Source: a virus
Length of the DNA stretch: 61,460 bases
IMG/VR virus record: IMGVR_UViG_3300025674_000039
Span: 1-61,460 of that record
Reading direction: 5' to 3' (one strand)
Below are positions 35,774 through 36,813 of the stretch, piece after piece (within the stretch, counting starts at the first letter, position 1; every line of letters begins with the position of its first letter). The notes under the pieces are model-generated. The model did not search any database and was not told where the DNA came from. It worked only from the letters and a program-made list of their open reading frames with translations. The position numbers were made by a program, and so were the translations under genes.

Positions 35774-35849
35774 ACCAGTTCTCAAACTGGACCACTTGAC
35801 ACCTCCTGATCCACATGGTATGATTGATGGGTACAGGAGAGCGATTGCC

Positions 35850-36026
35850 ATGAACGAGTACGTCGAACAAGTCGTAGTTGACATTCCTACAAAATCCTTT
35901 TATCTTTTCAGCGATCTTGGAGATTCAAGGACGATCGAATGTGATACGACAACTGAGTTCATGAATATATTGGAGGTTTGTAATGCCAGCCTCCCAGAAG
36001 GAATGCTCACTTATACAAAGGTTTGA
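35850..36026 (+). CDS. Hypothetical protein, 58 aa
   Basis: The start at 35850 is supported by AGGAGA at 35835-35840; longer in-frame options overlap the preceding gene. Product MNEYVEQVVVDIPTKSFYLF..., beta then helical. Overlaps the antitoxin-like gene by ATG/TGA, so the two are coupled. Not a recognised toxin. Confidence 0.6.
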   Translation: MNEYVEQVVVDIPTKSFYLFSDLGDSRTIECDTTTEFMNILEVCNASLPEGMLTYTKV

Positions 36027-36202
36027 TGGAAGTTTTTACGCTACAAGAATGGGAAGACAATTTTGATGAACTCTTCGCAAGAGTTGAAAATGGAGAAACC
36101 ATCGGAATTGTAAGAGAAGATGGTCAAGCAGCAGTCATGATGCCTGCTTCTGAAGCAGATTTTCTGCGAATACACACAGTAGGCAATAACGACGCTGATT
36201 AG
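36026..36202 (+). CDS. Phd/YefM-like antitoxin (orphan)
   Basis: 58 aa. WEDNFDELFARVENGETIGI and then VREDGQAAVMMPASE follow the Phd/YefM DNA-binding core (L...V..GE...I.R.G...AV..P...). Family knowledge: Phd antitoxins bind their own operators and neutralise a Doc- or RelE-type toxin. No toxin-like gene adjoins; the upstream coupled gene does not look like one. It is 7 nt upstream of the tRNA cluster. It may counter a host toxin or act as a plain repressor; both are inference. Confidence 0.72.
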   Translation: MEVFTLQEWEDNFDELFARVENGETIGIVREDGQAAVMMPASEADFLRIHTVGNNDAD

Positions 36203-36209
36203 TGTATTC

Positions 36210-36281
36210 GGGAATGTCGCCTAAAGGTAAAGGCCCTCTGCTTATAACGGAGTGATCTGGGTTCAAGTCCCAGCATTCCTA
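36210..36281 (+). tRNA. tRNA, anticodon UAU (Ile, AUA codons)
   Basis: Full cloverleaf: acceptor GGGAATG/CATTCCT with a G-U first pair, D stem GCCT/AGGC, anticodon stem CTCTG/CGGAG with loop CTTATAA, 4-nt variable loop, T stem CTGGG/CCCAG with loop TTCAAGT, discriminator A. No CCA encoded. Isoleucine by anticodon. Confidence 0.82.
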
Positions 36282-36284
36282 TTC

Positions 36285-36357
36285 GCAGGTCTAGCAATTT
36301 GGTAAATGCAGCGTTCTCATAAAGCGCCTAAAAAGAGTTCGATTCTCTTGACCTGCA
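36285..36357 (+). tRNA. tRNA, anticodon CAU (elongator Met or Ile2)
   Basis: Perfect 7-bp acceptor GCAGGTC/GACCTGC, anticodon stem GCGTT/AGCGC with loop CTCATAA, T stem AAGAG/CTCTT with loop TTCGATT, discriminator A, no CCA. The G-C first pair rules out an initiator. CAU could be Met or, if lysidinylated, Ile for AUA. Confidence 0.85.
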
Positions 36358-36362
36358 CCTAC

Positions 36363-36436
36363 GCCCGAGTGACCCAGCGGAATGAGGTTCTCGACTTAAA
36401 ATCGAGCAGTCGCGGGTTCGAATCCCGCCTCGGGTA
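36363..36436 (+). tRNA. tRNA-Leu-like, anticodon UAA, short variable loop
   Basis: Acceptor GCCCGAG/CTCGGGT with a G-U end, anticodon stem CTCGA/TCGAG with loop CTTAAAA (UAA, Leu), T stem GCGGG/CCCGC with loop TTCGAAT, discriminator A, no CCA. The variable region is only 5 nt (36407-36411), whereas bacterial tRNA-Leu has a long variable arm. Confidence 0.8.
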
Positions 36437-36485: not shown

Positions 36486-36504
36486 CTTCCAGATGGGAAG
36501 TGCT

Positions 36505-36813
36505 ATGTCATATACAATACAGACAAAGAACTGCTGGTATAACAAGAGATCTGTTATAGTCCATATGTTCTTTCTTAATCATGTACCATTTACCTTTGAT
36601 GATCTTCCTGATGGGTACTTGTATGATAGGTTGATCGTTGAAGAAGCAGAAAGCAATATAAGTTACGAAATAGACGATATATACAGAGGATCTAATTATC
36701 TGATTCAAGAGCAATGTCATCCTTGCTTTGATGTGATAGAGATTACAAATCCAGAAAAATTGCCAGAAGAGATGCAAAGTTTCTACAATGGTGAAGAAGA
36801 TTTGTTTGGATAA
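36505..36813 (+). CDS. Hypothetical protein, 102 aa
   Basis: Two start candidates, 36493 and 36505; the second has GGGAAG 5-10 nt upstream and suits the late promoter. Product has aromatic beta segments (CWYNKRSVIVHMFFLNHVPF) and acidic patches. No family recognised. Ends where the next late promoter starts. Confidence 0.65.
   Translation: MSYTIQTKNCWYNKRSVIVHMFFLNHVPFTFDDLPDGYLYDRLIVEEAESNISYEIDDIYRGSNYLIQEQCHPCFDVIEITNPEKLPEEMQSFYNGEEDLFG

Follow-up and report, generated by a model that had tools for sequence, protein, structure and literature searches.

A Phd-like antitoxin gene linked to tRNA-Ile(UAU) in cyanophages, and its possible role in a translation-protecting cassette

What does a phage gain from an antitoxin-type gene that stands next to tRNA genes? 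The question is raised by a locus in a 61-kb IMG/VR virus record (61,460 nucleotides), a fragment of its phage genome that is called the window here. The baseplate/tail region of the window matches Synechococcus phage S-SKS1, and by this resemblance the source phage is an S-SKS1-like cyanomyovirus. All features of the locus lie on the plus strand. A sigma-70 consensus promoter (35796..35824; TTGACA-17-TATGAT with an extended TG, 11 of the 12 consensus bases) is located 25 nt 5' of the start of a tail-locus gene of the DUF7294 family (35850..36026, 58 aa). The TGA stop codon of this gene (36024-36026) overlaps the ATG (36026) of the phd-like gene (36026..36202). The phd stop codon ends at 36202 and a tRNA-Ile with the anticodon UAU begins at 36210 (36210..36281), which leaves a gap of 7 nt. 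A tRNA with the anticodon CAU, called as Met (36285..36359), and a tRNA-Leu with the anticodon UAA (36363..36436) follow. The tRNAs were identified with ARAGORN, and their ends are possibly 1 base off. The sequence-only reading, which had described a Phd-like gene coupled to an upstream 58-aa gene and placed 7 nt before a tRNA cluster, thus gave the correct layout.

The ORF at 36026-36202 is genuine, and its translation product (MEVFTLQEWEDNFDELFARVENGETIGIVREDGQAAVMMPASEADFLRIHTVGNNDAD, 58 aa) is Phd-like. It matches PHROG family phrog_375, "Phd-like antitoxin", with an E-value of 2.5e-13, and Pfam family PF02604 (PhdYeFM_antitox) with an E-value of 7.2e-6 and 26.1 bits, under the gathering score of 29.8. 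The relative from S-PM2 passes the PF02604 cut-off with 32.4 bits, and the one from RB11-B passes TIGR01552. Searches of Pfam, NCBIfam and PADLOC returned no match other than to the Phd family. Homologues are present in 164 phage records (tblastn, E<=10), the best named one in S-SKS1 (75% identical, 1e-20), and relatives at 60-90% identity occur in at least 80 IMG/VR loci. The ORF is therefore not a chance ORF. An AlphaFold2 model built with 38 sequences has a pLDDT of 80, with values above 90 for residues 1-40 and below 60 for the tail. In Foldseek, the PDB entries that match best are those of P1 Phd and YefM, at a probability of 1.00 and a TM-score, by query length, of 0.6-0.76; owing to the shortness of the chain, the E-value is no better than about 2e-3. 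The Phd fold, on which the sequence-only reading had made its case depend, is thus present in the predicted structure, P1 Phd being its nearest match.

The protein consists of a predicted Phd/YefM-fold domain (about residues 1-40) followed by a short tail, which is acidic and bears the conserved motif R[IL][HY]T..NN[DE]A; the whole chain has 58 aa, compared with 73 aa in P1 Phd. The tail motif, as R[IL][HY]T..NNEA or ..DHEEGS, is common to most subfamilies, and the member from Prochlorococcus phage P-HM1 has it in a looser form. Comparison of subfamily representatives gives 23% identity over the last 14 residues, as against 13% in shuffled tails, and 40% identity over the N-terminal domain. 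The domain is also very acidic. The net charge of the window protein is -11 overall and -10 in the first 45 residues, where the family mean is -8 and the value for P1 Phd (sequence verified) is -1. R19 and R29 are the only basic residues within positions 1-40, and the basic residues R7, R10, R30, R31 and R33 of P1 Phd are mostly missing from the phage family. A close cyanobacterial chromosomal source of the gene was considered and rejected, as a scan of genome contigs gave only mycobacterial VapB46-type relatives.

A toxin partner was sought in 15 records, the 61-kb window fragment included, and no match over the cut-off was obtained for the YoeB, Fic/Doc, RelE/ParE or PIN families. S-SRM01 gave one sub-threshold YoeB match. 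In the S. elongatus control genome, the PhdYefM, YoeB, ParE and PIN families were all found. The description of the gene as an orphan antitoxin is hence borne out for the toxin families and records searched. A cognate toxin gene, adjoining or elsewhere in the genome, as expected of a type II toxin-antitoxin (TA) system, was not found in the window fragment. The small downstream genes (T4-GC 249/250) were discarded as toxin candidates, since they match no toxin family.

The sequence-only reading had called the upstream 58-aa gene non-toxin-like, and had added that it could still be an unrecognised toxin. The product of ORF 35850-36026 belongs to PF23966 (DUF7294; E 9.5e-16) and to PHROG phrog_662, and the gene is labelled T4-GC 29 in S-SM2 and P-SSM2. 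Its structure model is confident (pLDDT 93), with FtsH periplasmic domains, not toxins, as the best matches. In Bellamy, S-SM2, P-TIM68, S-CAM9 and P-SSM2, DUF7294 lies in the tail locus, between baseplate-side genes and a tail-fibre gene, without an adjoining phd. A phd-like gene follows directly 3' of DUF7294 in S-SKS1, S-H38 and S-SRM01. Together with the translational overlap in the window, the adjacency in these lineages could be read as a disguised TA pair, with DUF7294 as the toxin and Phd as its antitoxin. However, a toxin would not be expected to persist without its antitoxin, as it would have to in the phages that lack an adjoining phd, and the predicted fold is confidently that of a non-toxin. 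We regard such a pair as very improbable. DUF7294 is conserved at the tail locus, its predicted fold is not that of a toxin and it is often found without phd, and it is therefore most probably not a hidden toxin. Of the two earlier statements, the non-toxin-like character of the gene stands, and the unrecognised toxin is not supported.

By gene order, the strongest feature of the locus is one that the sequence-only reading did not contain, namely a specific linkage of phd to tRNA-Ile(UAU). To avoid circularity, IMG/VR was scanned with a tRNA-Ile(UAU) pattern alone, blind to phd. Among the tRNA-Ile(UAU) genes with enough upstream sequence, 77 of 116 have phd directly upstream, compared with only 2 of 526 other tRNAs in the same contigs (Fisher p 3e-67). 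The linked sequences are related and the p-value therefore overstates their independence, but the contrast is still not subtle. In the 77 linked loci, which encode 73 distinct Phd proteins, phd ends -22 to 43 nt before the tRNA, and at exactly 0 nt in 25 of them. The gene 5' of phd is tRNA-Pro in 38 cases, DUF7294 in 17, tRNA-Ser in one and some other gene in 21.

The converse approach started from phd. In named phages and the first 80 relatives from IMG/VR, it mostly found tRNA-Ile(UAU), tRNA(CAU) or both a few nucleotides downstream, at the tail locus and also elsewhere. tRNA-Ile(UAU) is the neighbour of phd in S-SKS1, S-TIM5, S-SM2, RB11-B and S-B05. In S-SM2 and RB11-B, the order is tRNA-Pro-phd-Ile-Met, within the classical tRNA cluster near nrdB. 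In S-TIM5, which represents a different lineage, a ferredoxin gene precedes phd, and Ile, Met and Leu tRNAs follow after 7 nt. The linkage is thus kept behind at least three upstream neighbours (DUF7294, tRNA-Pro and the ferredoxin gene). It is likewise found in relatives with a longer Phd that are freshwater-type by resemblance, the origins of the contigs not having been checked singly, so that the linked pair spans marine and freshwater-type cyanophages. Taken together, these gene orders show that the short-form clades of phrog_375 are tied genetically to tRNA-Ile(UAU), usually with tRNA(CAU) behind it, at several genome sites. Many metagenomic contigs stop inside or just before these tRNA genes (for example L009, L015 and L021-L024); assemblies seemingly break at the cassette and under-report it.

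Could the linkage reflect plain co-inheritance, with phd and the tRNA as ancestral cyanophage neighbours that are moved jointly by recombination of tRNA arrays, and with a role of phd that is unrelated to its neighbour? These phages vary in their tRNA clusters, and the cassette sits in variable inserts; DUF7294 and the tail-fibre gene, for instance, have several inserts between them, of which the phd/tRNA block is one. Moreover, 39 of the 116 tRNA-Ile(UAU) genes lack phd, and in some relatives phd is accompanied by tRNA-Met alone or by no tRNA. Against this, the linkage is specific, being seen in only 2 of 526 other tRNAs, and it has outlasted at least three changes of upstream context, several gap lengths, large divergence of the protein, and a swap of the tRNA to a type II form with unchanged anticodon. 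We consider co-inheritance alone unlikely.

Clues to the time of expression come from the region upstream of DUF7294. A sigma-70 promoter match (p<=0.05) is present in 70 of 73 distinct regions, and 44 of these have a perfect TTGACA-17-TATAAT with all 12 bases; here and in the tests of palindromes and complementarity below, simple base shuffles were used and the loci are not independent. This promoter type, a host-type consensus, suggests that DUF7294, phd and the tRNAs form an early operon within the late tail region, and that they are probably expressed early.

The explanation that we prefer, tentatively and at somewhat less than an even chance, is that phd and the tRNAs form a translation-protecting counter-defence cassette of an orphan antitoxin and replacement tRNAs. 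The Phd-fold protein would be made early in infection and would act as a lone antitoxin, not paired with any phage toxin. Through its short C-terminal tail, it would bind and silence a host factor that attacks translation. This factor might be a toxin of the YoeB/RelE, Doc or PIN/VapC type, or a comparable core RNase. The adjacent tRNAs would stand in for lost or limiting AUA-reading and CAU tRNAs. The points in favour are the predicted Phd fold, the tRNA linkage, the varied upstream neighbours, the lack of a toxin, the acidity, the conserved tail and the early-type promoter. Candidate targets are present in at least some hosts. Pairs of the yefM/yoeB, phd/doc and vapBC kinds occur in Synechococcus CB0101, whose relE is up within 30 min of infection (PMC5498466). 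There is precedent for phage tRNAs as possible counters to tRNA-cleaving toxins, VapC among them (PMC10264068), and for cyanophage antitoxins as possible counters to host toxins, which has been proposed for S-CREM1 (PMC9964418). A decoy function of Phd against host toxins, as suggested by the sequence-only reading, is accordingly among the possible roles of the protein.

Several observations fit the cassette less well. PMC5498466 reports that Prochlorococcus yielded no TA pair, and yet phages of Prochlorococcus MED4 carry family members (P-HM1 and MED4-213) with a similar tail. Antitoxin tails normally diverge along with their toxins, but the Phd tail appears alike over many hosts. Furthermore, several lineages have lost the tail and kept the tRNA linkage (S-TIM5 L088, L162-L165, L188, L212, L236, L289), which indicates that the linkage tracks the N-terminal domain and not the presumed toxin-binding part. 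Finally, the members of the Syn1/S-PM2/S-RSM4 subfamily are longer proteins, their genes overlap talC or nrdC, and they do not adjoin tRNA-Ile.

The main rival to the cassette takes the N-terminal domain as its starting point. A Phd-like dimer could be a DNA-binding regulator of the tRNA genes, a rewired Phd/YefM autoregulator that binds a promoter palindrome or inverted repeat located between phd and tRNA-Ile, and that sets tRNA output. The dimer-forming N-terminal domain is common to all linked members, including those without a tail. The spacing between phd and tRNA-Ile falls into three classes (abutting, a 4-16 nt leader, and a 38-48 nt leader), and they bear on this proposal in different ways. 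The 38-48 nt class has 17 distinct loci, 15 of which have a TTGAC[AG]-17-TATAAT-like promoter at p<0.05. The promoter ends 13-16 nt before the tRNA, and the phd stop codon lies within or beside the -35 box. In most of these loci, a dyad palindrome extends over the -10 box, and its arms covary (CCAAATC/GATTTGG, CCAGATC/GATCTGG, TCCAGGTT/AACCTGGA, TTCAGATC/GATCTGAA), with spacers as in CCAAATC-N9-GATTTGG and TTCAGATC-N10-GATCTGAA. As the palindrome straddles the -10 box, it cannot fold as a hairpin in the transcript of the tRNA itself, which makes an operator the more likely reading. Taken singly, however, several of the palindromes that bear mismatches score no better than shuffles.

In the 4-16 nt class, to which the window belongs, 36 of 66 loci show complementarity between the leader and phd tail codons (p<0.05). 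In the window, the left arm of this inverted repeat (CGAATACAC, 36167..36175) lies within the phd tail codons, and the right arm (GTGTATTCG, 36202..36210) comprises the last base of the stop codon, the 7-nt leader and the first base of tRNA-Ile. A second register, GATGATGAACTA/TAGTTCATCATC, is used in other loci, and arms with matched changes occur (for example GAAATT/AATTTC and CTTA/TAAG). In the RNA folding prediction for a 156-nt region of the window (z -2.44), this inverted repeat forms a hairpin. Relative to shuffles, the mean z of predicted folding is about -3 in the short-leader class, compared with -0.3 in the abutting class. In this class, the inverted repeat may be a binding site of the protein or, alternatively, an RNA hairpin. 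In the abutting class (29 loci), the tRNA touches the phd stop codon, which leaves no room for signals.

The properties of the protein also fit poorly with a regulator. The acidity of the domain and the lack of most P1 Phd basic residues make ordinary operator binding less likely. An operator palindrome, as expected for type II autoregulation, was found at the DUF7294 promoter in 4 of 58 cases, which is not above chance, and no promoter was found between phd and the tRNA in the window. We rate the regulator as rather unlikely, if less so than co-inheritance. Promoter- and operator-like sequences that separate phd from the tRNA in some relatives lend circumstantial support to the local repressor of the sequence-only reading, but the window itself provides no such support.

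Is decoding of AUA the common denominator of the linked genes? The share of ATA among Ile codons is 63% in linked phd genes; it is 24% for small neighbouring genes and no more than 6% for DUF7294. In the phd tail, all 60 of 60 Ile codons of the DDELI type and 75 of 88 in RI[HY]T are ATA. We nevertheless rejected the AUA-rich phd as proof of a coupling to tRNA-Ile(UAU). The bias is strongest in the tail, CGA is enriched as well, and ATA still accounts for 55% of Ile codons where phd is beside tRNA(CAU) only, so that the tail might just as well hold a signal at the nucleotide level. The phrog_4134 gene behind the tRNAs (36493-36813) belongs to a family that is also rich in ATA (48% of Ile codons). 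With somewhat more reserve than for the cassette, we suggest that Phd and tRNA-Ile(UAU) could be a dedicated mobile cyanophage unit for AUA decoding, in which Phd would either shield the tRNAs from a tRNA-attacking host factor or control their synthesis via the operator or hairpin.

The tRNAs have peculiarities of their own. The tRNA(CAU) of the window may be an elongator Met or an Ile2 tRNA. Bacterial Leu tRNAs are expected to have a long variable arm, but the tRNA-Leu(UAA) at 36363-36436 lacks it, as do those of L001, L031, L038 and L102; in other relatives, this position is occupied by a regular type II Leu tRNA. The aminoacylation identity of the arm-less form is uncertain. A type II tRNA-Ile(UAU), whose variable arm is long and often has the loop CAGATTA but whose anticodon is unchanged, is found behind phd in S-SKS1-like and other phages (L001, L018, L027, L031, L038, L074, L095, L102). 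In vitro, a nematode nev-tRNA-Ile(UAU) of the type II form is mischarged with leucine (PMC4300185). The deposited annotations of S-SKS1 (NC_020851, L001) and S-SRM01 (NC_070963, L102) omit tRNA genes behind phd that ARAGORN detects.

The protein family as such is already known. PHROGs and RefSeq annotation both have names for it, and there has been earlier discussion of lone cyanophage antitoxins (PMC9964418). By profile and sequence, the window protein is in the same family as the phrog_375 proteins of the cyanomyoviruses S-SKS1, S-SM2, Bellamy, S-TIM5 ("Phd-AT") and S-PM2 ("PhDYefM tox-ant domain"). The talC/nrdC-coupled, longer Syn1/S-PM2 subfamily differs from it in lacking the neighbourhood of tRNA-Ile. 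With P1 Phd and E. coli YefM (PF02604), the window protein shares the predicted N-terminal fold, but it differs from them in the missing toxin gene, the acidic domain, the short tail and the lack of a detectable upstream operator. The best PDB sequence match is a mycobacterial VapB46-type Phd antitoxin (6jqy, E 0.009). These antitoxins, the only close genome relatives found, are about 36-40% identical in the N-terminal domain only, and their C-terminal parts are unrelated.

Among functional precedents, the replacement of tRNAs that are attacked by host toxins (PMC10264068; a retron case in PMC11555353) shares an idea with the cassette, although the accessible portion of PMC10264068 mentions no phage antitoxin gene. 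YefM, TacA and MazE of S-CREM1 are, like Phd, lone phage antitoxins proposed to neutralise host toxins; in what could be consulted of that report (PMC9964418), they are described as unique to S-CREM1 and a tRNA linkage is not mentioned. In its effect, the cassette might also be likened to T4 Dmd, a phage anti-toxin counter-defence. We found no functional work on phrog_375 and no published account of a linkage between phd and tRNA-Ile(UAU), in a search conducted mostly without subscription papers that is no proof of novelty.

Why phages carry tRNAs is a long-standing question, and lone phage antitoxins have mostly been annotated and then left. A specific and widespread linkage between an antitoxin-type protein and a single isoacceptor offers a concrete handle on both. 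It leads to the prediction that AUA/CAU decoding is under attack by some host factor, or else that tRNA genes have a Phd-type regulator; both would be testable in cultured phages such as S-TIM5, S-SM2 and S-SKS1.
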